Source: a virus. From it: a stretch of 50,222 bases of DNA. Every line of letters starts with the position of its first letter. Positions within the stretch are counted from its first letter, which is position 1. The position numbers and the translations under genes are program-made. The notes beneath the pieces were generated by a model, which saw only the letters and a list, made by a program, of their open reading frames with translations, did not search any database and had not been told where the DNA came from. The DNA lies in IMG/VR virus record IMGVR_UViG_3300017971_000361, positions 1-50,222 of that record; one strand, written 5' to 3'. This document shows positions 36,774 to 50,215 of this stretch, piece by piece.

Positions 36774-37976
36774 TCAGATACCCAGGCCCAGGTTCTTCAG
36801 CTTCGACACGGCGTCCGTTTCTTCGAACTGGCACGCGACCTTCAAGTGGATCGCATACTGGTTGACCTGCCGATAGATCGACCGGTCCTTTTCGATGGAA
36901 ATGTCCATGCCAATCCCGATAATGAAGTTCTGCCAATGGCTGAGCATCATTTGGGGTCGGGCCGTATACGTCACCTTGACCGTGTCACCGGCGCCGATCG
37001 ATCCGGTGGCTTCACGCTGGATCGTACCGTTGGCGTAGTCCATATGGTAGTCCGTACCCTCGACATACGGCGTGGTCGGGGTGTCCGCCAGGGTGGAATC
37101 GAAGACCGTTTCCGACCCGGACAGAAGCGGAGCGTACCGCAGGCTGATCAGGTCGGTCCCGGTCAGCGCCACGTGTTCGACCACGACCGGTTCGTACGCC
37201 ATGAGCGGGACTTCTACCAGCGGGATACCGAACGGTGACACCATGTCCGCGGAACCCAGGGCGACGTCGCCGGCCTGGGTGGCGCGGGTCGAAACCTTTT
37301 CACGCCACAGCTGCGCCAGGTCGGGGGACGCGAAGAACCGCAGTTCGCGACGGTTCCGGCGGAACTTCGTGGGAAGCGCGCGGATCAGCTGACCGAACTG
37401 GGTTGCGCCGATGTTGTTTCCTTCGGCGTCCACCACGTGCCCGCTGTCGGCCAGGCGCAGCCAGCCGTTGAACTCGGCCAGCATCGGATCCTTGATATAC
37501 TGGGTGGTGCTTCCGCCCCACGGCAGCACGTCGTTTTCGATCCCCGCTTCGCCCAGCGCGTCACCGTGGATCTGCAGTTCTTCCACGTTGTTAGCGGTCT
37601 GGCGGGCCATCATTCTGATTATATGATCCTCTACGTCATCACCTTCGATATTGTACTGCACATAGTCGTCGGTGATTTCGAAGGGGACCACGTTTTTCAC
37701 GGGGGACAGGCTGACCTTGCTGTGGGACACGCCCGTCCGCCCGGCCGGTTCGATTCCCTCGGAAGCCGGGTACATGACCCGCTGCCCGACACCGATCTTG
37801 TCAATGTCGAGCGTTTCCGGTCGGAACTTGACCGTTCGCGCGTTGCCCTTGAAGACGGTTTCCTCGAAGACATAGTCAATGAATTTCGAGGCTTGCACCG
37901 GATTGAGTTTCCCGGCGCTGGCAATCGCATCGGTTGCGATCACCGCTTTTTCCATGAGTTCTTCGTTGCTCGGCAT
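36774..37976 (-). CDS. Major capsid protein, HK97 fold, 400 aa
   Basis: This is the main shell protein. Features include the N-terminal helix (ASKFIDYVFEETVFKGNART), the spine region (DHIIRMMARQTANNVEELQI), and the A-domain and C-terminal strands (RFFASPDLAQLWREKVSTRA; DMVSPFGIPLVEVPLMAYEP; SIYRQVNQYAIHLKVACQFE). A beta-rich insert (TPTTPYVEGTDYHMDYANGT) lies in the later half. There is no long N-terminal delta domain, so a separate scaffold is needed; the acidic gene upstream fits. AAAGGGGTG precedes ATG 37976. Confidence 0.85.
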   Translation of the reverse strand: MPSNEELMEKAVIATDAIASAGKLNPVQASKFIDYVFEETVFKGNARTVKFRPETLDIDKIGVGQRVMYPASEGIEPAGRTGVSHSKVSLSPVKNVVPFEITDDYVQYNIEGDDVEDHIIRMMARQTANNVEELQIHGDALGEAGIENDVLPWGGSTTQYIKDPMLAEFNGWLRLADSGHVVDAEGNNIGATQFGQLIRALPTKFRRNRRELRFFASPDLAQLWREKVSTRATQAGDVALGSADMVSPFGIPLVEVPLMAYEPVVVEHVALTGTDLISLRYAPLLSGSETVFDSTLADTPTTPYVEGTDYHMDYANGTIQREATGSIGAGDTVKVTYTARPQMMLSHWQNFIIGIGMDISIEKDRSIYRQVNQYAIHLKVACQFEETDAVSKLKNLGLGI

Positions 37977-38038: not shown

Positions 38039-39073
38039 TTACTTCGCGTTCAACTGCAGGCACCCACCCCACACGCTATCGGACTTCTTCGTGTCGGTGT
38101 CGCCGGGCTGGCTTCCATCGTCGGGAAGCGAAGTCGGGACGCCGGCGTTTTCCAGCGCGTCCAGTCGCTTCCCAAGTTCCGCGATCGTCGCGTCGCGTTC
38201 TTCCAGCGACTTCTGCAGGTCGGCCACCTGGTCGGCCTGGTCGTCGGCCGGCGGGTCTTCCGACTTGTCCACCTGGGCGTCGGCGTCGGTGTCGGCCTTG
38301 TCCACTTCGGCGCGATCCACGGCCGCTTCCAGGTCGTCCAGTCCCTTCTTCATGTCGGGGGGCGGCATGATCCCGATCGCCGACATGACGTCCACCAGGG
38401 TTTTCAGGGCGGCCTTTACCGCCTTCTTCTTCGCCGGCGTGAAGCGGCCCGCCATGAACGGGGGCTTCTTGTCGTCTTCCTGCTTCTTCGCCTTGTCCAC
38501 CTGGGCGTCGGCGTCGTCGGCCGGCTGATCTTCGTCCGACTTCTTCGTGTCGGCGTCGGCCTGGTCGTCGTCTTCCTTCTTCGCCTTCGCTTCGTCTTCT
38601 TCGTCGTCCGGCTTTTCGCCCGGTTCCTGCTTCTTCGACTTGTCCACCTGGTCGGCGTCGGTGTCGCCTTCGTCGGACTTCGTGGTGGACTTCGGGTACT
38701 TCTGCGCCAACGACTGAAGCACGCTGACGACCGATCCCAGTTCCTTCGTCATGGCCGGGGTTACGTCGCCTTCTTTCGCCTGGTTCGCCAGGCTGATCAG
38801 CTTTTCGGCTGACGTCCTGGCGTCCGCCGCGAAACGGCCCTTTGCCTTTTCGGTGTCCTGGTCGTCGTCCTTGATCGTCAAGGTCCCGTCGTCCTTTTCG
38901 ATGATCTCCATTGGATCCCCCTGGTGGCGCTTCACGACTGTGAAGGGTTCCTGGTTCGCTGGTCTATCGACGATCGAAACCTCACGCGGCCGAATATTCG
39001 ACAGGCGGAAAAGCTCCGCCTGTTCTTCCGGGGTGGGTTCCCGATCGGTGTCCTTCGTGGTGTGATCTGTCAC
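38039..39073 (-). CDS. Acidic scaffold-like protein with XkdF tail motif, 344 aa
   Basis: From GTG 39073 (GTGA overlap with the protease gene) the first 50 residues contain RLSNIRPREVSIVDRPANQE, which is the final strand motif of XkdF-type proteases (E-x-S-L/I-V-D-x-P-A-N). Then follows a low-complexity, Asp/Lys-rich region (VDKSKKQEPGEKPDDEEDEA; DDDQADADTKKSDEDQPADD) with two helical parts (KKKAVKAALKTLVDVMSAIG; DLQKSLEERDATIAELGKRL). Acidic, helical proteins just before the capsid gene are typical scaffolds. It may also be made as a -1 fusion with the protease, though no slippery heptamer is visible. Confidence 0.75.
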   Translation of the reverse strand: MTDHTTKDTDREPTPEEQAELFRLSNIRPREVSIVDRPANQEPFTVVKRHQGDPMEIIEKDDGTLTIKDDDQDTEKAKGRFAADARTSAEKLISLANQAKEGDVTPAMTKELGSVVSVLQSLAQKYPKSTTKSDEGDTDADQVDKSKKQEPGEKPDDEEDEAKAKKEDDDQADADTKKSDEDQPADDADAQVDKAKKQEDDKKPPFMAGRFTPAKKKAVKAALKTLVDVMSAIGIMPPPDMKKGLDDLEAAVDRAEVDKADTDADAQVDKSEDPPADDQADQVADLQKSLEERDATIAELGKRLDALENAGVPTSLPDDGSQPGDTDTKKSDSVWGGCLQLNAK

Positions 39074-42000
39074 TGCACTGGTTCCCTGTTCGCCAGTCCG
39101 CCGACAGAAAAGCCGGTCCGTCGTCCAGACCGTACAGCCTGCCACAAGTCCGTGTCAAGTATGCGAAGCGCCAGGATCCACGTGCCCGGCCTGACAGAAC
39201 GGTTACCGATCGTATACCCAGTGGGTGCGCAGTAGCATTGCAACACCTTCACCTTGTCCGAAATGTCCTTGCCATGCTGGTCGTGGATCCGCATGCCGTG
39301 TTCGGCCCAGAACACCATGGCGTTGTATACGTCGTCGTCGCTGTACACGTCGTTCTGTGCATCGGGCTTCATACCACCGGCTGCGGCTTCGTCGGTGGGT
39401 TCCAGCACGATCCCTTCCACGTACCGTTCGCCTTCGTCGGACTTCAGAACTTCGAAGCCACCCAGGCCGGACGCGGTGCGCTTTTCCACTTCGTGCTTTC
39501 GGATCGTCGCTTCCGCCTGGTCGGCCGACATGGGTTGCCGATCGGTCACCCCGATCACCGTCGGTTCGGACCAGGTGATCGATCGCTTGTCGTCCGACTT
39601 GCCCACCACCAGATCGCCCACTTCGACTTCCAGCACGTCGCCGACGTTCGCGAACACTGGGGCCGGGACCGTGCACCCGATATCGGCGTACGTGTCGCCC
39701 CGGACGTTCTTGATCCCCTTCCAGGTGTCGCGGTCTTCCTTCACGATCGGTCCGATCGCACAGTGGAACGCGCCGGCGTCGGGGTCGTCGGGTGGGGTCG
39801 TCTTCTTCCAGACGATCGCCCGGACCTTCCAGGACGGATCGAAGTCGCACGCCTGGGCCGGGGTGTCGTGGTCGGGTTCGGCCTTTTCGGTCGGGACGCG
39901 GCCGGGTGCAGCGTCCGGTGTCATGGTCCACACGTCGGACCCTTCTTCTTCGGCGACCAGGGTGTGCGTTCCCTTCAGCACGTCGCCGGCGAAGCGGATC
40001 CGGACGACCGACTGGGTGCGCTTCAGCAGGGTTGCCTTCCCGCGGTCCACGACACAGATCCCCGACGTCGTGTGCTTCGTGGTGTTCAGCACGTCGTCGC
40101 CGACCTGGGCGCCGGGTTCCACGGCACCTTCGAAAGTCAGAAGGGCTTTGCTGGTACGGTGCACCTGCTTCGCTGTGATCTGCGGCGGACGGGTGGCAGG
40201 GTCGGCCTGCAGCACCCAGGTTCGCAGCCCGTCGCCGTCGTCAAGGGACAGGTGCCATTCGGACCGCAACGCGTCCTTGCTGGTGCGGAAGTCCTGCCGC
40301 GACAGGGCGAAGTCCACGACCGGCGGCGCCTGGTCCAGCCGGTCGCCCTGGTCCACGTACAACTTCCGGACCGTCCGCCGGAACTGGCCGTCCACCACCT
40401 TCACGTTGTCGTCGGTAAAGTGGCGGGACTGCACCAGGGCGTCGCGGATTTCGCGCGCTTCGCGCGGGTTGCTCGCCTTCCAGTACCGGAACTGTTCCGG
40501 GGTCACGGCTTCCAGCGTCTTCGGAATCGCGCTGTACCCCTTCGGCGGCATGGACTGGGTAGCGACCGCCCTGGGCTTCAGCACCCCGGGCAGCGCCGAT
40601 TCGGTGATCGTCGCGGTCCACAGCGGGCCATCGGTGGAACCGATCTTCCGCATGAACAGGATCCCGCGAACGTCGGCCCCCTTCCCCGTCAGGAAGTATT
40701 CGTGGGCGTCCGGTTTCTGCAGGCCCAGTTCCACAGTCGGCCGGTCGGCCGTGACGAAGACGCCGGCTTCCAGGCGGGTCGCCCCGACTTCGCCCGGTTC
40801 GACCACCTGATCCTTCAGGTTCAGCCAGGCGACGGGCTGACGGGTTTTGCCCTGGACGCGAAGCTGGGACGGGGCCGCGAACGGTTTGGTGTACCGCCCA
40901 CCGGCCACGCTGAACCTGTCCGCGATCCGTCGGGCCTGTTCCACCGTGTCCACGGCGGGCACGGCCCCCGCCTTCTGGTTGTTCAGGGTCCAGCCCACCA
41001 GGTGATCGTTGACCTTGATCCGGAAGTCCAGGTGCAGACTGGACCCCCGGAAGTGATACTGGAACACGGCCGGGCGCTGGGTGGCGTCCTTCGGCGGCAT
41101 ATCCAGGAACGGGTCCGCCTGCTTCACCAGGTCGGCCGCCATGCGGATCACGTGCAGATCGTTGCGTCGTCGCAGCACCAGGTCGTACATGGGCACGTTG
41201 TCCGTGAACGGGCCGCCCTGGTCGTCGTGCACGAACTGGACCCGGCGGGACAGCTCGGGCGGGAACATGCGTCCCAGACGGAACCGGATCGCGTGCCGCG
41301 TCGCTTCGTCGAACGGACCGCGGATCAGCAGGTCAATATCGCCCTTCGACTTCCCGTGAACGGCCACCCCACCGACCAAGTACACGGCCGGTTCCCGCAG
41401 CACGATATCGCGGACGTGCCGCAGCACTTCCGGCAGCACGACCTGTGATCCAAAGTCCTGTTCACCCCCGGGATAGATCGCCGCCGTCTGGCGTTCGAAC
41501 GGAGCAAGCCACTTCTGCAGGTCACCTTCCGGTATCCCTTCGTATGCCGTCGGGTCAAGCCCCCGGGTTTCGGCGTCCAGTTCGTCGGGACCGCCGGGGT
41601 GCTTCAGATTGCGGCGCGCCATTTCGCGCAGCAGGTGCAGGTGGGCGTTGATCACGTCTTCGCGGGACTCGGCGCCCGTCGTCGTCCGGTCGGTGTACGC
41701 GAACAGTTCGGCGTGGAAGGCATGCAGGGACAGGTCCGCTTCGCGCACCTGGTCGTCGGTCCACCTGGCGATCGTCACCGGGTCGATCGACCTGGTGGAC
41801 ACCAGACCGATCCCGGGGACCAGCACTTTTTCCAGTTCGTCGGGCAGGTCGTCCAGGTCCAGGTCACCGTCCGCCTTCGACAGATCGTCCAGCATGTCGG
41901 GCAGGGCTTCCAGGTACGCGATCGCTTCGTTGACCGCCTTTCGTGCGTCGGCCGCTTCCACGGGGATCGACGATACCAGGGGAAGCAGGACGTGCAGCAA

Positions 42001-42996
42001 CTGTTCGGCCGCCGCGGGGAACGCTGACGGAACTTCGCTTGCTTCGTGCCCACCAGTCACCTTGATCGCTTCCAGGTGGGACAGCAGATCAGACAGGACC
42101 GGGCCGAAGTTCCGCAGGACACCGATCCGCTTCGGGTCGTTCGTCAGCCTGGCGGCCCGGTCCACGAACCCGGGTACCTTGTGCGCCAGGCTGTGCGCCA
42201 GGTGCCGGGCCTGCGCCACCAGTTCGCCGGGCTTCGGGGGATCGGGTTCCGGCTGCTTCGCGGCTTCGGTCGGGGCCGGTTCTGGTTCTGCCTTCTTCGA
42301 TCGGTGGGGGTCCATGCACCGCATGATCAGGAACCCATCGGCAGCGTGCAACAGGTTGACCTTGCCGAACGCGCGCCGCAGTTCGGCCGCCAGTTGTTCC
42401 GGCGTGAAGCCCCGCTGGAACGACCCCGACCTGGTGCGGATCCCGTCGTGTTCGGGGGTCCCCTTCGTGCCTTCCAGGTCGGCGGGGGTCCAGACGACGA
42501 CCAGGGCGCGGCCGTCGGGCTTCGTGGCGCCAGCGATATCGGCGATCGCCGCGCGTCTGGCTTCCGGTGGCAGCACGTTCAGCACGTACGACGACAGCAC
42601 CGTGTCGTACTTGCGGCCCAGTTTGTCGCGGCCCGGGGCGAAGTTCGGATCGTATTCGGTAACGTTGTCCACACCCCGGGTTTCCCGCATGCGGGTTGTG
42701 TCGTGGTGCGCCTTGCCCGACCCGTGGTGCAGCACGTCCCCCTTGATCCATTCCCAGGCACACGCCATGCGGACCGGGGCCGACGTCCCTTCCCGTTGCC
42801 GGGCGGTCCGGGCGGACGCCAGGACGTCGGCAGCGGACTTCGCGGACAGGTGCAGCACTTCGGGGTGCGCGGTCAGGATCTGCCCGATTTCAAAGTCCGT
42901 GGGCGGGTCGTGGCGGACTTCACCCTGGGCCGGGTACATGGCACCGCCGTCGTCCAGGGCAGGGGTCGCGATCGTCTGCTTCTGTGTGTCGGTCAT
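39070..42996 (-). CDS. Multidomain protein: methyltransferase-like, nucleotidyltransferase, tandem LigD-PE-like, XkdF-like prohead protease (1308 aa)
   Basis: Domains in order: residues 70-228, a class I SAM-dependent methyltransferase-like fold (motif I region VLHHGSGKAHHD, then TEYDPNFAP and YDTVLSSYVLNVLPP), close to the type linked with phosphorothioation loci but with altered motif I. 240-500, linker and helices. 538-610, a minimal nucleotidyltransferase (GGVAVHGKSKGDIDLLI, Asp553/Asp555, third acid in MYDLVLRR). 640-797, a LigD 3'-phosphoesterase-like domain (YHFRGSSLHLDFRIKVNDHL, GWTLN). 894-1030, a second copy (FEGAVEPGAQVG, CVVDRGKATL, FAGDVLKGTHTLV). 1180-1308, an XkdF-like maturation protease (RYVEGIVLEP, WAEHGMRIHDQHG, GTWILALRILDTDLW, TGFSVGG). 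The protease job at capsid maturation is well placed between MuF and scaffold. The other domains may act on DNA after injection or in the capsid; that is inference. Confidence 0.82.
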   Translation of the reverse strand: MTDTQKQTIATPALDDGGAMYPAQGEVRHDPPTDFEIGQILTAHPEVLHLSAKSAADVLASARTARQREGTSAPVRMACAWEWIKGDVLHHGSGKAHHDTTRMRETRGVDNVTEYDPNFAPGRDKLGRKYDTVLSSYVLNVLPPEARRAAIADIAGATKPDGRALVVVWTPADLEGTKGTPEHDGIRTRSGSFQRGFTPEQLAAELRRAFGKVNLLHAADGFLIMRCMDPHRSKKAEPEPAPTEAAKQPEPDPPKPGELVAQARHLAHSLAHKVPGFVDRAARLTNDPKRIGVLRNFGPVLSDLLSHLEAIKVTGGHEASEVPSAFPAAAEQLLHVLLPLVSSIPVEAADARKAVNEAIAYLEALPDMLDDLSKADGDLDLDDLPDELEKVLVPGIGLVSTRSIDPVTIARWTDDQVREADLSLHAFHAELFAYTDRTTTGAESREDVINAHLHLLREMARRNLKHPGGPDELDAETRGLDPTAYEGIPEGDLQKWLAPFERQTAAIYPGGEQDFGSQVVLPEVLRHVRDIVLREPAVYLVGGVAVHGKSKGDIDLLIRGPFDEATRHAIRFRLGRMFPPELSRRVQFVHDDQGGPFTDNVPMYDLVLRRRNDLHVIRMAADLVKQADPFLDMPPKDATQRPAVFQYHFRGSSLHLDFRIKVNDHLVGWTLNNQKAGAVPAVDTVEQARRIADRFSVAGGRYTKPFAAPSQLRVQGKTRQPVAWLNLKDQVVEPGEVGATRLEAGVFVTADRPTVELGLQKPDAHEYFLTGKGADVRGILFMRKIGSTDGPLWTATITESALPGVLKPRAVATQSMPPKGYSAIPKTLEAVTPEQFRYWKASNPREAREIRDALVQSRHFTDDNVKVVDGQFRRTVRKLYVDQGDRLDQAPPVVDFALSRQDFRTSKDALRSEWHLSLDDGDGLRTWVLQADPATRPPQITAKQVHRTSKALLTFEGAVEPGAQVGDDVLNTTKHTTSGICVVDRGKATLLKRTQSVVRIRFAGDVLKGTHTLVAEEEGSDVWTMTPDAAPGRVPTEKAEPDHDTPAQACDFDPSWKVRAIVWKKTTPPDDPDAGAFHCAIGPIVKEDRDTWKGIKNVRGDTYADIGCTVPAPVFANVGDVLEVEVGDLVVGKSDDKRSITWSEPTVIGVTDRQPMSADQAEATIRKHEVEKRTASGLGGFEVLKSDEGERYVEGIVLEPTDEAAAGGMKPDAQNDVYSDDDVYNAMVFWAEHGMRIHDQHGKDISDKVKVLQCYCAPTGYTIGNRSVRPGTWILALRILDTDLWQAVRSGRRTGFSVGGLANREPVQ

Positions 42997-43005
42997 GGGT
43001 CACCT

Positions 43006-44190
43006 TCAGGTACTGGTCCGGGGCACCGTCGCAGGGACCGGTGCGTTCCGGCGCTTGGGTATCTTGGGGCGCGGTGCAGGCCGCGTCCTAACCTTCGGCT
43101 GGTCCGGGTTCACCACCGGACCGGGCACAATTTCCGCCACGCAACGGCAGTGGAAATGATACGGCGGCAGTATCATATTGTTTTCGGTCAGGGTCCGGGT
43201 GCCGCGGGTACCGGCCCCACGGGGTATCCCCAGTCCCTTGAACTGTGACACCTTCAGCCAGGGCTGCGCCGACCGCACCCCGCCTGGTGTCGTCGCCCCC
43301 AGGATCGCGTCCATCTGGCCAGACGCTACACGTAGCGGAAACCGCTTTCTATTCATGGTGTTACAACGATCACAGGTGCGTTCGTCACTGGGGTTCAAGA
43401 TCTCGATTTGCCGGACCCCCACCCGACGGAAGGCGTCGATCGATCCGGCGGTCCGGGCCGTCGTCGCAGCGTTCGTCGCCAAACCGTCGTGGTACGTCGC
43501 AGCCGTACCCTGCCACCCGGGCGGGACTGGACCAGCGGCGTCGGGCCGTACGTAGTCGGCCGGCACCACGTCCAGTTCCCGTTCTAGGGCTTCGCCCAGT
43601 TCCTTCGCCGCGTCTTCTCCGGTCAGCCCCTGGCGCACGATCACATCGCGGGCCGTCCAGGCGATTCGGCGCGACAGGTTCTTGTCGTAATGATCGCCAA
43701 CCCAGAAGACCTGGTGCCGGTTCAGGCGGTTGATCGCGTTGACGTCTTGCAGGTCGAACGTGGGCGCGATTTCCAGGGGGGTCGCCGCCTTTTCCACTCC
43801 GGGCAGTTCCGCCGGCGGAAGTGGCGGATCGATTTGTAGGGGCACCTTCGACGCGCCCAGGGCACGGCGCCAGGCGGCCCGCTTCCCCAGGGCGTAGAAG
43901 TGGGACACCTGGGACGTGATCGCCTTGATCGCCGCGTCGTCAAAGGCGTCCTTGTACGCCTTCCTGACAGCAGCCAGGATCGATCGAAGGGGTCTGCCTG
44001 CCCTGGCTGCGGACTGGGCCGCCCTGATCGCTTTGCGGGACGCCTTGATATGGAACTCGCCCAGGGCGCGGCGCAGTTCCGCTTCGCGGATCAGGATCTC
44101 TTTGAACTCGGGCGGGCCCGCAGCCTTCAGCACGGCCAGGCGCGACAACGCGAAGTCGGCCGCGTGCTTTTCCAGGTCGTGGTCCGCCAT
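43006..44190 (-). CDS. Minor head protein, Mu gpF/SPP1 gp7-like, 394 aa
   Basis: Head morphogenesis protein that binds the portal and may be injected with DNA. The C-terminal domain has the signature ILNPSDERTCDRCNTMNRKR, a Trp/Gly-rich middle and the closing YHFHCRCVAEIVP, the paired CxxC/HxxCRC pattern of the family, which may bind zinc. The N-terminal 200 residues are helical. A C-terminal basic Pro-rich tail (RPAPRPKIPKRRNAPVPATV) is added. ATG 44190 is chosen over GTG 44196. Gene order portal, MuF, protease is the norm. Confidence 0.85.
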   Translation of the reverse strand: MADHDLEKHAADFALSRLAVLKAAGPPEFKEILIREAELRRALGEFHIKASRKAIRAAQSAARAGRPLRSILAAVRKAYKDAFDDAAIKAITSQVSHFYALGKRAAWRRALGASKVPLQIDPPLPPAELPGVEKAATPLEIAPTFDLQDVNAINRLNRHQVFWVGDHYDKNLSRRIAWTARDVIVRQGLTGEDAAKELGEALERELDVVPADYVRPDAAGPVPPGWQGTAATYHDGLATNAATTARTAGSIDAFRRVGVRQIEILNPSDERTCDRCNTMNRKRFPLRVASGQMDAILGATTPGGVRSAQPWLKVSQFKGLGIPRGAGTRGTRTLTENNMILPPYHFHCRCVAEIVPGPVVNPDQPKVRTRPAPRPKIPKRRNAPVPATVPRTST

Positions 44191-44197
44191 GCACACG

Positions 44198-46009
44198 TCA
44201 GTCGCCCTGTTCCGCCCAGTGGACGGCGCGCTGGATTTCGGCCTGGGCGGCGTTGCCGATCCCCACCAGATCCATGATCGTCGCCTGCCGCCATGCCTTC
44301 GCCACTTCGTCTTGCGCCGACGGCTGGACCGGCGCGACAGTCTGCCCGATTTCCGTGGGGCCCGCGGTCCCGCCGGTGTTCTTCACCCGGTCGGCCATGG
44401 TCAGGCTAAACGGCTGGTCCGGATCGAACTTCGACGGGTCCAGATCGGGGATATCCGCTGCATTCTTGAACACGTCTTCGATCACCAGGCGGGCGAGGCG
44501 CGGTGTGACACCACCGGTGCGTTCGCCCTGCGCCAGCATTTGGATCAGCTCTTTGTTGTCGGTGACGTTCGGGGTCCGGGATTCGAAACGCCAGTACCTG
44601 ATCCCCAGGTCGGTTAGGATCAGGTGGTTGATCGTCCAGTCCACTTCTGTCCGTTCCGGCCCGAACACTTGCTCGTCGGCCAGTTTGCGACCGGCTTCTG
44701 TGTTCGCCTTCGTCACTTCGGCTTCGGCCCCGACGAAGATCCGGGGGATCCGGAACGACCGCCGGATCGCGTCGCGACAGTTCCCGACGTACCCCTGGAA
44801 CAGCGCGTCCCGCAGCTGGACGTCGGTCATGGGCTTGATATCGATCCGCACCTGCCCGCTGTCTTCCCCTTCCACGTCGCCTTCGGCTTCGACGACCAGG
44901 AACCGGGACATATTGTCGTCGGACTGTAGGATCTCCGCGTACGTTTCGATCCGCTTGATCGTGGCTTCGGTCAGCATGCCATTCGACACGGCGAACACGG
45001 CCGACGGAACGTTGTTGTTGCTGATCGTGGTCAGGTTGATTTCGCCGGCCTTGCGTTCACCCAGGATCGACAGCAGTTCCCCAATGTACCGGGGGATACC
45101 GTACGGTGACCGGGGCGAGTAGATCCGGAAGTGGATCACTTCGTTCGCCCGGCGCCCTTCGGGCATGGGCTTGTTCGTGCCCTTCCAGTTGTCCACTTCT
45201 TCGGGTGGCACGTAGTCCCCGGTTTCGTTGTCCATGACCCGCGGATCCCCGAAGGACTTGAACCAGCGGATCTTGCCGATCCGCCGGCTGACCATTTCCC
45301 GAAGTTCGCCCTGACGTTCGCGAAGCAGCAGGGTCTGTCCCTGGGCGAACGCTCGGAACCGCTTGTACGTCGGGACCTGTTCGATCTGGAAGTCGTTGTC
45401 CACGATCTGGATCACCGGGACGTTCACCTGGGTGAATTCCTTGTCTTGGATCCCCAGACGTATCTGATACGACGGCAGCTGCTTCAGTCGCATGATCCGC
45501 TTGCCCTTGCGGGTCCGGATCACTTCCCAGTACGCGTTCCCTGTCGCTTCCAGGTCGGTCCGCGTGTTGCGTCGGTGGGCCGTGAACGACACGTCTAGGG
45601 CGATCGATTCGAACAAGTTTTCCAGCAACACCTTTTCGAACTTGGCCCGCTTCTTCACGGCGTCCGGAACCTTCGTGTCTTCGATCCCCGTAAACCGACT
45701 GACCAGGCGGTGCCCGAAGCCTTCGATATTGACTTCCATGGCTTCAATCGCCCGGGACAGCTCACCCGACAGTTCCGGGAACCGGGACAGGGTGGTCAGG
45801 TTGTACGGGGGCGGGACAAGGCGGTCAGCCCATTCGGTCCAGACTTCGGATTCCGCCAGGGTGCGCGATGCTTCGGCCGGAGTGTCCTTGTCGGGTTCGA
45901 CGCCCACCTGCTTCTTCGTCTTCGTCGGATGCCCGATGATCGTTGCCTTCACCATGCGCTGCGCGCGGCCGACGGCCTGCCCCGCTTCCTGATCGACGTT
46001 CGTTGCCAT
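44198..46009 (-). CDS. Portal protein (PBSX/XkdE-like), 603 aa
   Basis: The dodecameric ring at the packaging vertex. The 603-residue protein has the PBSX-type portal pattern: an N-terminal clip/wing region (IEAMEVNIEGFGHRLVSRFT), then GNAYWEVIRTRKGKRIMRLK, the central HFRIYSPRSPYGIPRYIGEL, the stem helices (GERKAGEINLTTISNNNVPS) and the C-terminal PMTDVQLRDALFQGYVGNCR with VGAEAEVTKANTEAGRKLAD. It lies between terminase and MuF genes. The N-terminal 50 residues look disordered. Confidence 0.88.
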   Translation of the reverse strand: MATNVDQEAGQAVGRAQRMVKATIIGHPTKTKKQVGVEPDKDTPAEASRTLAESEVWTEWADRLVPPPYNLTTLSRFPELSGELSRAIEAMEVNIEGFGHRLVSRFTGIEDTKVPDAVKKRAKFEKVLLENLFESIALDVSFTAHRRNTRTDLEATGNAYWEVIRTRKGKRIMRLKQLPSYQIRLGIQDKEFTQVNVPVIQIVDNDFQIEQVPTYKRFRAFAQGQTLLLRERQGELREMVSRRIGKIRWFKSFGDPRVMDNETGDYVPPEEVDNWKGTNKPMPEGRRANEVIHFRIYSPRSPYGIPRYIGELLSILGERKAGEINLTTISNNNVPSAVFAVSNGMLTEATIKRIETYAEILQSDDNMSRFLVVEAEGDVEGEDSGQVRIDIKPMTDVQLRDALFQGYVGNCRDAIRRSFRIPRIFVGAEAEVTKANTEAGRKLADEQVFGPERTEVDWTINHLILTDLGIRYWRFESRTPNVTDNKELIQMLAQGERTGGVTPRLARLVIEDVFKNAADIPDLDPSKFDPDQPFSLTMADRVKNTGGTAGPTEIGQTVAPVQPSAQDEVAKAWRQATIMDLVGIGNAAQAEIQRAVHWAEQGD

Positions 46010-46021
46010 GTCGTCCCCCTG

Positions 46022-47449
46022 CTAGATCACACCGGGTTCGCGTTCCCGACGTTTCCGCCTTTTGTATCGCACAGCGCGCACTGCCAAGTCCAGCGCGTCG
46101 AAGGCGTGATCGTGGTCACCGTCCGGAAACCCCACCAGTTCTTCGATCAGCTGGTCCAGTCCCTGGGTAAAGATCACCTTGCCCGCTTCGAACTTCGCTG
46201 CCAGGTGGGCGGCGCGCTGGTCCTTCGACCTTTTCTGAAAGGCTTTGAAGATCGGAAGCCCCTTGCGCTTGCGCTTCACTTCGTCAACCAGCACGGCCTG
46301 GTACTGCTGGGCTTCGATCAGGAACTTCGCCACGTCGTGCCGTTCGGCCAGTTCGATCACCCGGGTCCGCTGCTGCACGAATTTCAGCCGGCCCGCCACG
46401 TGGTCGATCACGTAGTATCGATCGGTCACCTTGTCATACCGGATCACGACCAGTTCGAACAGGTCCGCTGTTTTCTTCAGGCTAGTTGCCAGGTCGCCGC
46501 CGCCGTACGCCGGCAGGCCGTCGGGCACCTGGTCATGCGGGATCACCCGGATATCGTCCCACTGGAACACGCCGCCGCCCACCATCTTTTTCGCGTCGCA
46601 CAGATACTGCGTGGCGAAAATGATCGATCCCATTTTCGTCCGCAACGCCAGCAGGAAGGACACCGGGAACTTGTCCGGCCATTCGGCCACCCACCCGTCG
46701 GTGTTGTTGCCCCGCATGGCGGGGATCACCAGGGTCCGGGGGCCGTCCATGTCGGACTTGCGCAGGTGGCCGTACAGGTCGGCGGGGTGGTGTGGGACCC
46801 CACGGACCGCCAGGGCGCCGCCGGGTTCCAGGGTCGGCAGTAGCGTCTTGTAGAAGAACGTGTGCACCTTGCGCCGCATATGGGCGGTCCGGGATTCCGA
46901 TTCGGACACCAGGTCGTCACAGATCAACACGTCATAGTGTCGGGACTCCACAGCGCTGTCCAGCCCGACCGTGGTGATCGTCGGTTCCTTCGGCTGCTTC
47001 GTGCGACCGGCCACCTTGATTTCGTCTTCGTCCCACTTCGCCCCGACCTGCGGCCCGAAGATCGCCTGCACCTTGTCGGATTCCAGGTGCCCCTTGATCT
47101 CTGACAGGAACGCCTTTGCGTTCGTGTGCGACTTCGACGCGATCAGGATCCGGACGTCGGGATCCTTCAGGACGCGCCAGACGGAATATGCCACCGTGAC
47201 GATCGTGGACTTGCCGCTGCCGCGCCACCCCAGGACCAGGTTACCGTCCGGGAACCGCAGGGTGTGCTTCAGCATGCGAAGGTGGTGGGGCGCGACTTCG
47301 TATCCCAGGACTTCCGTACACAGCAGATCGATCCGGTCGTATTCCAGGATCTGGCGTCGCAACAGGTCGCGTTCTGCCCGTTCCAGTTCTTCGGCGGTTT
47401 CGACCAGTTCCCGGCGGGTGTTCCGGTCGTGCGCGGTCGCCGTTGTCAC
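46022..47449 (-). CDS. Terminase large subunit, 475 aa
   Basis: The DNA-packaging motor. ATPase domain: Walker A GWRGSGKS (74-81), motor motif ILIASKSHTNAKAF, Walker B VLICDD (174-179). Nuclease domain (RNase H fold): first acid Asp319 in YGGGDLATSLKKTAD, second acid in FLIEAQQYQ, last acids in GDHDHAFDALDLAVR (445-455). Start is GTG 47449 with GGGGGTAACC directly upstream, 3 bases after the small subunit stop. The headful or cos mode cannot be judged from this. Confidence 0.9.
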   Translation of the reverse strand: MTTATAHDRNTRRELVETAEELERAERDLLRRQILEYDRIDLLCTEVLGYEVAPHHLRMLKHTLRFPDGNLVLGWRGSGKSTIVTVAYSVWRVLKDPDVRILIASKSHTNAKAFLSEIKGHLESDKVQAIFGPQVGAKWDEDEIKVAGRTKQPKEPTITTVGLDSAVESRHYDVLICDDLVSESESRTAHMRRKVHTFFYKTLLPTLEPGGALAVRGVPHHPADLYGHLRKSDMDGPRTLVIPAMRGNNTDGWVAEWPDKFPVSFLLALRTKMGSIIFATQYLCDAKKMVGGGVFQWDDIRVIPHDQVPDGLPAYGGGDLATSLKKTADLFELVVIRYDKVTDRYYVIDHVAGRLKFVQQRTRVIELAERHDVAKFLIEAQQYQAVLVDEVKRKRKGLPIFKAFQKRSKDQRAAHLAAKFEAGKVIFTQGLDQLIEELVGFPDGDHDHAFDALDLAVRAVRYKRRKRREREPGVI

Positions 47450-48484: not shown

Positions 48485-48978
48485 GACTGCACCTTTTCCC
48501 CGTTCAGCAGGATCAGTTCGTCGCCCAGGTCGGCCCCGAAGGGGTCGGGCACGGCTTCGGCCGACAGGAACTTGTATAGCACCGACAGATCCCCGTCTTT
48601 CATGCCCAGGCCCGGTTCAGGGGACATGGCGGAAAGCCTGGACCAGCCGTCGTACGGCTGCACCGTACCATCGCAGTCGTCGCCCAGACACGCCGAACCG
48701 AAGAAGCGGTGCCAGTTTCCGCACGTGTCGCACCTGCCCAGCGCCTGGTCGTTCGCCAGGGGGTGCTTTCCGTCTTCGATCTTCAGTTCCAGGGCTGCGG
48801 CCCCGGTCACGGGGTGGACGACCTGGTGGGGTTCACCGCCCCCGGGGCAGTACCCCCACACCACCCACACTTCCGTCCAGTGGGTCCCCAGGCAATAGTT
48901 GTCTTCGGTCTTCCAGGCCGCGATCTTCGCCAGGTCGATCGTGGTCGTTTCGAACGGCTGTGCCAGTCGTACAGGCAT
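48481..48978 (-). CDS. Hypothetical zinc-binding protein, 165 aa
   Basis: Four cysteines in LGRCDTCGNWHRFFGSACLG and CDG form a likely zinc ribbon in the middle of the protein, flanked by aromatic beta strands (THWTEVWVVWGYCPGGGEPH). AAGGGGGAA before ATG 48978 is a strong ribosome site. The gene overlaps the last 146 bases of the glycosyltransferase frame in another phase. Function is unknown. Confidence 0.65.
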   Translation of the reverse strand: MPVRLAQPFETTTIDLAKIAAWKTEDNYCLGTHWTEVWVVWGYCPGGGEPHQVVHPVTGAAALELKIEDGKHPLANDQALGRCDTCGNWHRFFGSACLGDDCDGTVQPYDGWSRLSAMSPEPGLGMKDGDLSVLYKFLSAEAVPDPFGADLGDELILLNGEKVQS

Positions 48979-50215
48979 GGTTTCCCCCTTGCAGGGCGCG
49001 TTCGTACACGCCCACAGTCTGCTTCGCTACTTCGTTCCAGTCAAACGCGCGGGCCCGCTTCAGACCCAGATCGCGCAATTCGTTTCGGATCCGTGCTTCT
49101 TCGCACATTGACAGCGCGGCCTGGATATCGGCCGCGCTGTCGGGCCGAATGATCAGGGCGTATTCATTGCCCTGGGCGTCGTTGACGATTTCCCCCAGGC
49201 CGTCCACTTCAGTCGCGATCAGCGGGGCGCCGCTGGCCATGGCTTCCAGCGCCACGATCCCGAAGGGTTCGTGCACCGACGGCATGATCACGACGTCGGC
49301 CGCCGCGTACAGGTCGAACAGCGCCTGGCCGGTCTGGAACCCGACCCACCGCAGCCGGTCGGGGTGGCGTTCGGTCAGTTCGCGGATCCGCTTCGTGACG
49401 TCCCAGGCGTCCACCTGGGCCTTCGTGTTCGCGTTGACTTCACCGCACAGGACCACCTGCCACCCGCCGGTGCCCCCGTATTCCACGGCGTCCAGCAACG
49501 GCCTGATCCCCTTCATGTCAGCGATCCGGCCGACGTACAGACAGACCGGGCGGCCGGTGGTCAGGTTGTGGTCGGTCTGCGCCCGGTACTTGTCGCCGGC
49601 GTCGGGGTTCCAGGTGTCCAGATCGATCCCGTTCGGGATCATGGTGATCGGCCGTTGGGTCATGAACGTACGGCGCACCAGGTCAACGTACGCGTTGGAG
49701 CACAGGATCAGTTCGTTCGGGTCGCAGATCAGGTTCCCTTCCTGCTGCCACAGGTACAGGGTGGGTTCGTTGGGCGTATCCACCTGGTCTGTTGGGCAGG
49801 TGCCAATGGTGGACAGGTGCGATATGCACAGGTGCATCGTTGACACCTGGGGCACCTGCAGCGCATGGCGGGCCAGCCGGGACACCTGGACGGATCCCCA
49901 TTCGTGGTTGTGGACGACGTCCCACCGGCGACCTTGCGCGATCAGGCGGGTCAGGGTCTTGACCATTTGCAGATCGTCGATCAGATACGACGACATGCCG
50001 GGCGACGGCGGCTTGAAGCACACGTGTTTGTTGCTCGGGTGCTTCGTGTACCCGTCGCAGTCGATCGTCCCTTCGCCGGGACCGGACGTCAGCAGATCGA
50101 CTTCCACGCCGTCCAGGGCGCCCATATGGCGGTACAGCTCGCCGACGTGGCGGCCCATGCCGCCCAGGATCCAGTTCGGGTCTTCCTTGCAGATCGCCAG
50201 CACGCGAAGTGTCAT
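48833..50215 (-). CDS. GT4-family glycosyltransferase, 460 aa
   Basis: A GT-B fold sugar transferase. The N-terminal Rossmann domain shows GGMGRHVGELYRHMGAL and VVHNHEWGSVQVSRLARHAL. The C-terminal donor domain shows CLYVGRIADMKGIRPLLDAV and the E-x7-E motif HEPFGIVALEAMASGAPLIA with DGLGEIV. These use NDP-sugars and are close to bacterial glycogen/sucrose-type synthases. In a phage the product could be a sugar on DNA, on the virion or on host surface glycans; it cannot be told from sequence. The last 48 residues after ALQGGNHA lie in a frame overlapped by the next gene and look like non-family sequence. GGTGGG before ATG 50215 is at the window edge. Confidence 0.82.
   Translation of the reverse strand: MTLRVLAICKEDPNWILGGMGRHVGELYRHMGALDGVEVDLLTSGPGEGTIDCDGYTKHPSNKHVCFKPPSPGMSSYLIDDLQMVKTLTRLIAQGRRWDVVHNHEWGSVQVSRLARHALQVPQVSTMHLCISHLSTIGTCPTDQVDTPNEPTLYLWQQEGNLICDPNELILCSNAYVDLVRRTFMTQRPITMIPNGIDLDTWNPDAGDKYRAQTDHNLTTGRPVCLYVGRIADMKGIRPLLDAVEYGGTGGWQVVLCGEVNANTKAQVDAWDVTKRIRELTERHPDRLRWVGFQTGQALFDLYAAADVVIMPSVHEPFGIVALEAMASGAPLIATEVDGLGEIVNDAQGNEYALIIRPDSAADIQAALSMCEEARIRNELRDLGLKRARAFDWNEVAKQTVGVYERALQGGNHACTTGTAVRNDHDRPGEDRGLEDRRQLLPGDPLDGSVGGVGVLPRGR

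Follow-up and report, generated by a model that had tools for sequence, protein, structure and literature searches.

What does a prohead maturation protease do at the end of a 1308-residue chain of enzyme-like domains? This question is raised by a gene in the window, i.e. the whole stretch of DNA analysed here, which comprises 50,222 bases and corresponds to the complete record IMGVR_UViG_3300017971_000361 of a contractile-tailed virus encoding tail sheath, tape measure and baseplate proteins. The gene lies in the head module (local gene order: terminase, portal, MuF-like, polyprotein, scaffold-like, capsid), and its relatives combine a nucleotidyltransferase (NTase), LigD-type 3'-phosphoesterase (PE) domains and, in most cases, an ATP-dependent DNA ligase. 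We consider it rather probable that the product is a polyvalent-type virion protein, which is packaged into the prohead, cleaves itself and reaches the host along with the DNA, where it heals ends or nicks and, in most relatives, also seals them. The open reading frame (ORF) contains no internal stops, its ATG is preceded by a Shine-Dalgarno-like AAGGTGA, and its TGA overlaps the GTG start of the next gene at 39073. Since an identical ORF is present in further IMG/VR contigs (complete in L002, L003 and L004, partial in L005), we conclude that the polyprotein did not arise from a single faulty assembly or from a sequencing error that joined genes. The initial annotation, which had proposed a 1308-residue multidomain protein with a C-terminal protease from the sequence alone and had considered that an error might have joined separate genes, is thus confirmed by the intact frame, the identical copies and the domain matches described below.

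Residues 1182-1304 match Peptidase_S78_2 (PF14550) with 50.9 bits (cut-off 24, E 1.9e-13), and H1241 and S1297 are invariant across 33 members of the family. The Pfam score over the cut-off, the conserved Ser and His and the place before scaffold and capsid genes are all shared with XkdF-type proteases. These are usually small (151 aa in phage phiPsa374), whereas the polyprotein adds about 1170 residues of enzyme domains ahead of the protease. XkdF-type proteases act inside the prohead, where they are activated by assembly, and the fused chain is therefore expected to enter the prohead and to be cut there.

The sequence EVSIVDRPAN, which is the usual C-terminal continuation of XkdF, begins a separate scaffold-like gene at 38039-39073 overlapping the protease stop, and phage phiPsa374 (L009) has the same two-gene layout of protease and scaffold. 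A programmed frameshift between the two genes was considered and rejected, as the GTG/TGA overlap and the same split in phiPsa374 point to ordinary translational coupling. XkdF-type protease genes are often annotated as "DNA methyltransferase" (Lactococcus phage 28201/98201, PAK_P1-like Pseudomonas phages, PHROG 1530); the part that matches in these cases is the protease domain, which in phiPsa374 represents nearly the whole 151-aa protein, and this label is possibly a propagated misannotation.

Upstream of the protease lie two domains, PE1 and PE2, whose sequence scores were weak in the window protein alone. Therefore, the structure of residues 500-1040 (NTase-PE-PE) was predicted with AlphaFold2 together with 23 relatives, which resulted in a model with a mean pLDDT (predicted local distance difference test) of 81.8. 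The top seven PDB matches of this model were all LigD 3'-phosphoesterases of archaeal and bacterial origin (probability 1.00, best E 7.4e-7, TM-score up to 0.81 on the target, the aligned PE copy not being specified), and not capsid or scaffold folds. A profile of PE1 only ranked two archaeal LigD phosphoesterases first, namely 3p4h with an E of 0.076, followed by 3p43. In the Pseudomonas LigD phosphoesterase, the metal ligands are His42, His48 and Asp50 (PMC8656161). The model has the LigD PE fold, and in PE1 the residues Q646, H648, H655, D657 and R659 occupy the positions of Gln40, His42, His48, Asp50 and Arg52; the three at the metal-binding positions (H648, H655 and D657) are 80-91% conserved in the family. 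A PE1-specific motif, HEYF (H765-E766-Y767-F768), is even 98% conserved. A search of predicted viral structures returned one match, which was to an unnamed protein.

Ahead of PE1, the motif GG-x9-DID and a third Asp correspond to the G[GS], DxD and third Asp of minimal Pol-beta-type NTases. The residues D553, D555 and D605 do not vary among seven aligned relatives, and their conservation in 52 members is 84-98%; the relative L016 gives a weak match to PF01909. Between PE2 and the protease we identified a ligase-type OB fold, which the initial annotation had overlooked. Window residues 1095-1166 align with the OB fold of a ligase from ANMV-1 (a virus of methane-oxidising archaea); with the OB folds of relatives that were found later, the alignment is clearer. 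When residues 1030-1308 were modelled, the fold search placed DNA ligases (T4, human III and human IV) among its most probable hits, but with poor E-values, and no hit reached an E below 0.001; the OB assignment is thereby supported, not proved. Where relatives bear a ligase, its last motif, WAKVK, stands ahead of the OB fold; the window protein does not have this motif. As judged from the sequence, the window protein is one of a subset of members with an OB fold but without an adenylation domain, having lost the latter.

The N-terminal domain, when isolated, matches TIGR04096, a DNA phosphorothioation-associated methyltransferase, with an E of 4.9e-8 and 32 bits, which is below the curated cut-off of 150 and spans only the N-terminal 140 positions of the 478-residue model, so that it falls outside the family proper. 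Residues 61-227 are 38% identical to small stand-alone ORFs on Vibrio plasmids. No other family member was found to carry this domain as a fusion, and a pattern scan did not detect it in other IMG/VR virus species. The same type of methyltransferase, together with a cell-wall hydrolase domain, occurs in gp36 of Roseobacter phage CRP-3 (L008:3657-7535), a protein of 1292 aa encoded between portal and coat genes, which is likely to be an unannotated polyvalent protein. Taken together, the initial annotation was right about the XkdF-like protease, the minimal NTase and the LigD 3'-phosphoesterase-like modules, and its call of a methyltransferase-like fold was a good one. Its statement that every added domain belongs to known families acting on nucleic acids was too strong, since minimal Pol-beta NTases are able to modify proteins as well (PMC5512222).

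A search of 50,697 phage records with four family queries revealed ANMV-1 as the only record with the NTase-PE part, which may be the reason why the family went unnoticed. The respective protein is an 866-residue "ATP-dependent DNA ligase" (AJP62006, in KP703175) encoded directly after the portal gene. Its NTase, PE1 and PE2 are about 28-37% identical to those of the window protein, and the OB fold is shared, too. In contrast to the window protein, it carries an intact adenylation domain (PF01068, E 5.9e-17), located with the OB fold between NTase and PE1, and has neither a protease fusion nor a methyltransferase. Scanning viral contigs with a single protein recovered only copies of the same virus, the ANMV-1 protein alone as query found no members, and a two-sequence alignment found none in genome contigs. 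Only multi-sequence alignments opened up the family: an alignment of the window and ANMV-1 PE domains and then a seven-sequence alignment were scanned against IMG/VR and GTDB genomes. Besides more than 100 viral stretches, this yielded loci in archaeal genomes (Methanosarcinales, Thermoprotei, Archaeoglobales and others) and in a genome of Myxococcales. Once identical sequences had been discarded, 89 distinct members were left, originating from viral contigs, the ANMV-1 virus and bacterial and archaeal metagenome-assembled genomes (MAGs).

Domain models were then built and every ORF of all loci was scored; because some loci end at contig ends, the resulting domain counts are lower bounds. Of the 89 members, 52 have the NTase within the same ORF and 24 have it on a different ORF of the locus; for the ligase these numbers are 55 and 19, for the protease 33 and 13. 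PE2 is present in 75 members, and a D12/Dam-type adenine methyltransferase in 20, with 6 more in neighbouring ORFs. Wherever the protease is fused, it is located at the extreme C-terminus (33/33). If a PE gene has no ligase, an NTase-ligase-OB gene is usually located directly upstream. The ligase motif residues are conserved, with KxDG/KxNG found in 54 of 70. The family genes are flanked upstream by those for portal and head-morphogenesis proteins and downstream by those for major capsid proteins and maturation proteases.

A PF01068 ligase was found in 41 of 50 relatives' records, in 40 of them above the cut-off. The matching ORFs have the lengths of family ORFs, and a second, stand-alone ligase was not found even in records of more than 100 kb; the NAD+ type ligase (PF01653) was absent from 18 records, including the window, although many records are fragments and such absences are therefore weak. 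Members without a ligase (the window, L030-32, L041, L124-126, L128 and some others) have none elsewhere in their contigs either. In a tree of PE1, the window protein groups with L013, which has the ligase, and with L030, which does not (support 98/89), suggesting that the ligase was lost more than once. The same tree indicates at least seven changes of the protease fusion state on strongly supported branches, some of which may reflect contigs ending before the protease. Fusion and splitting have thus occurred repeatedly, yet the genes stay together; this is what chiefly leads us to place the action of both protease and enzymes in the prohead. The family-wide conservation and the position in the head module support a putative packaging of the protein and a role on DNA ends or nicks. 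The result at the level of the family is stronger than the observation of the single gene.

From the observed domain content, homology, conservation and head-module position we infer the following course of events. The polyprotein would enter the prohead by means of its C-terminal protease, which during maturation probably cuts itself and the chain, so that the upstream enzymes stay in the head with the DNA and the freed enzymes enter the host cell along with the genome. There, the PE domain would heal 3' ends by removing a 3'-phosphate or a ribonucleotide, as the LigD phosphoesterase does in converting such ends to a ligatable 3'-OH (PMC8656161). The NTase may transfer a nucleotide to the DNA end or to a protein, and the methyltransferases may mark and protect the incoming DNA or act in a repair setting. 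In most relatives, the attached ATP-dependent ligase would seal the break, whereas the window member, not having an adenylation domain, would heal the ends and leave the sealing to a host ligase. The target could be genome ends, leading to circularisation, or nicks gathered during extracellular life. One may go further and suppose a particle-borne, LigD-like end-joining machine of NTase, 3'-phosphoesterase, ATP-dependent ligase and adenine methyltransferase, which is processed by its own capsid protease and circularises or repairs the injected genome without Ku and without any host or newly made enzyme; in this strong form we regard the proposal as unlikely.

Several findings weigh against delivery in the virion and healing or sealing of DNA. 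The NTase profile gave no match in the PDB, and the window's 50 kb contain no match to PF01068 or PF01653. The conserved columns of PE2 do not include catalytic residues, and this domain looks inactive as far as its sequence goes. The phosphate-binding pair of the LigD phosphoesterase, His84/Tyr88 (PMC8656161), is apparently Gln/Trp in PE1 according to alignment and inspection, and the activity of PE1 could therefore be altered. Finally, Ku (PF02735) was found in none of the 50 relatives' records that the search covered, which makes classical non-homologous end joining (NHEJ) unlikely, although this absence, too, is weak in fragmentary records. Classical Ku-LigD NHEJ was therefore rejected as the literal mechanism.

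The closest known counterparts are LigD and the polyvalent proteins. As in LigD (POL-PE-LIG, PMC8656161), a nucleotidyl-transferring domain, a PE and an ATP-dependent ligase are combined in one chain or in adjacent genes. In contrast to LigD, the family has a Pol-beta-type NTase in place of the archaeo-eukaryotic primase-type POL, for which Pfam and NCBIfam scans gave no match; moreover, its PE is doubled with one copy degenerate, it comes without Ku, and it is encoded in a viral head module, often fused to the protease. The window member further differs in that the OB fold is all it has of the ligase. Published polyvalent proteins include some with an assemblin-like peptidase at the C-terminus, for which packaging and cleavage were deduced in a similar manner (Iyer 2017, PMC5512222), and the link to this theme drawn in the initial annotation fits that work. 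Polyvalent proteins are likewise large multidomain phage proteins; Pol-beta NTases and adenine methyltransferases are among their enzymes, and delivery together with the DNA is assumed for them. The window protein has several enzymatic domains in one phage-encoded chain, and the C-terminal position of the capsid peptidase holds for all fusions if XkdF is counted as assemblin-like by role. However, the published methyltransferases are mainly EcoKI/TaqI-like and fused to helicases (PMC5512222), unlike those of this family, and Pfam scans of the window protein and four relatives detected no zincin peptidase, ArdC or DarB-like helicase. As these hallmark domains, which are not required of every polyvalent protein, are absent, we speak of a polyvalent-type protein rather than of a member. 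A further similarity exists to African swine fever virus, whose Pol X, AP endonuclease and ligase repair viral DNA (PMC6344480, PMC5330486, PMC7076025), i.e. a minimal Pol-beta-type enzyme, an end-processing enzyme and a ligase; this is an analogy only, since the virus is unrelated, the genes are separate and the end-processing enzyme is a different one.

An injected effector could alternatively counter host nucleases or restriction by methylation and resealing of cuts, or nucleotidylate host proteins. Both adenine methyltransferases and Pol-beta NTases occur in polyvalent proteins, which are regarded as conflict effectors (PMC5512222), the D12 methyltransferases of the family and its neighbouring ORFs are in line with such a role, and the methyltransferase of the window is related to Vibrio plasmid ORFs. 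However, the most constant parts (NTase, PE and ligase) represent an end-repair set and not a known anti-defence set, and no defence target was identified. We consider an anti-defence function somewhat unlikely, keeping in mind that it overlaps with virion delivery for DNA healing, as both need injection. The anti-defence role suggested by the initial annotation is possible but has no specific support; the ligase-rich family points first to healing and sealing of DNA ends. It would also be conceivable that cleavage of the chain takes place in the infected cell, where the products provide ligase, PE and methyltransferase for replication or repair, without any delivery by the virion. The ligase of the family is the only ATP-dependent one in the records tested, and with the 18 records that also lack the NAD+ type it may serve replication. 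Nevertheless, we regard a purely intracellular polyprotein as quite unlikely, since portal/MuF and scaffold/capsid genes of the late head module flank these genes, since fusion to a capsid-maturation protease, an enzyme normally active in the prohead, has occurred repeatedly, and since a ligase is missing from several members.

A repair kit for RNA, comparable to the tRNA repair enzymes of phage T4, appears very improbable. LigD-type phosphoesterases do act on 3' ribonucleotides (PMC8656161), and RNA-ligase structures are among the weak matches of the OB region; against this stand the assignment of the ligase to the ATP-dependent DNA ligase family PF01068, above the cut-off in 40 of the 50 records, and the DNA ligases as most probable folds of the OB region, and a 5' kinase was not seen, without a search having been aimed at one. 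The weak window-only scores of PE and NTase could finally be taken to mean that the similarity is spurious and the protein a usual capsid or scaffold component, or that separate genes were joined by an artefact; to this we give practically no credence in view of the identical ORF elsewhere, the 33 members with a like protease fusion and the LigD phosphoesterases as top seven matches of the model. The features of the locus are listed in Table 1.

Table 1 Features of the polyprotein gene and its neighbours in the window, with the evidence for each assignment.
Feature	Coordinates	Strand	Evidence
Polyprotein-like head protein P0001, 1308 residues	39070..42996	-	Single open frame from ATG to TGA, identical ORF in further contigs
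Class I methyltransferase-like domain, TIGR04096-like, residues 61-227	42316..42816	-	TIGR04096 E 4.9e-8
Small conserved helical segment ahead of NTase in many members, residues 403-465	41602..41790	-	BLAST to many members
Minimal Pol-beta-type NTase, residues 528-618 (G542, D553, D555, D605)	41143..41415	-	Motif, conservation
PE1, LigD-type 3'-phosphoesterase, residues 640-800	40597..41079	-	Structure match, profile match, conservation
PE2, second LigD-PE-like domain without His/Asp metal ligands, residues 888-1030	39907..40335	-	LigD_N E 0.001-0.01
Ligase-type OB fold, residues 1056-1168	39493..39831	-	Homology to relatives' post-adenylation OB fold
XkdF-type prohead maturation protease, residues 1175-1308	39073..39474	-	PF14550 E 1.9e-13
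Scaffold-like protein (next gene), with LSNIRPREVSIVDRPAN near its start (usual XkdF continuation)	38039..39073	-	phrog_13975, weak
Major virion structural (capsid) protein	36774..37976	-	phrog_1623 E 6e-71
MuF-like minor head protein	43006..44196	-	PF04233 and head-morphogenesis PHROGs, weak
Portal protein	44198..46009	-	PF04860 E 1.5e-10; phrog_12 E 1e-26
Terminase large subunit	46022..47449	-	phrog_38 E 3e-68

Upstream of the terminase, the window encodes a GT4 family glycosyltransferase (48833-50215, minus strand; PF20706 "GT4-conflict", E 4e-16), and glycosyltransferase-like ORFs are located near the head genes of L016 and L017, too. Within the family, two ORFs share the ligase adenylation domain in L047, L049, L061, L062 and L065, the break lying ahead of motif IV between "...LMEK" or "...LMGK" and "LLEYKKLSEGVMIKR"; as this split is common to five contigs, a two-part ligase or recoding is possible. 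One ORF, L082:4416-10256, contains two ligase adenylation domains, both with PF01068 scores above the cut-off, and the Myxococcales MAG contig JACPVI010000063.1 (L132, L133) carries two diverged giant polyprotein genes with three D12 methyltransferase domains each. Repeated His-rich HxH...HxH segments, possibly metal-binding spacers, lie between the domains in L027, L028, L029, L033, L034, L043 and others. The PE proteins L055:7842-10106 and L060:7884-9725 have the motif "NFADCVRKNQDK.NP.AYC"; the L055 segment matches, in addition, a mycobacteriophage protein and the beginning of the scaffold/protease protein of Haloferax tailed virus 1 (HFTV1 gp17, L143), and is possibly a shared head-targeting module.

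The general kind, a polyvalent protein with a C-terminal capsid protease, is already published, whereas the ligase/PE/NTase kit is, as far as we found, undescribed. With the search terms used, the text of Iyer 2017 (PMC5512222) contains no description of a DNA ligase or LigD phosphoesterase in polyvalent proteins, and among the open papers to which the search was limited, neither a jumbo phage survey (PMC7824862) nor the ANMV-1 paper (PMC4372165) describes the kit. The family is widespread, ties capsid maturation to DNA-end repair and makes new LigD-type phosphoesterases and ligases available for study. It suggests that tailed viruses may bring their own repair and sealing enzymes, so that infection need not await gene expression or host ligases. 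If true, a particle-borne end-joining machine would represent a previously unrecognised way to start an infection.

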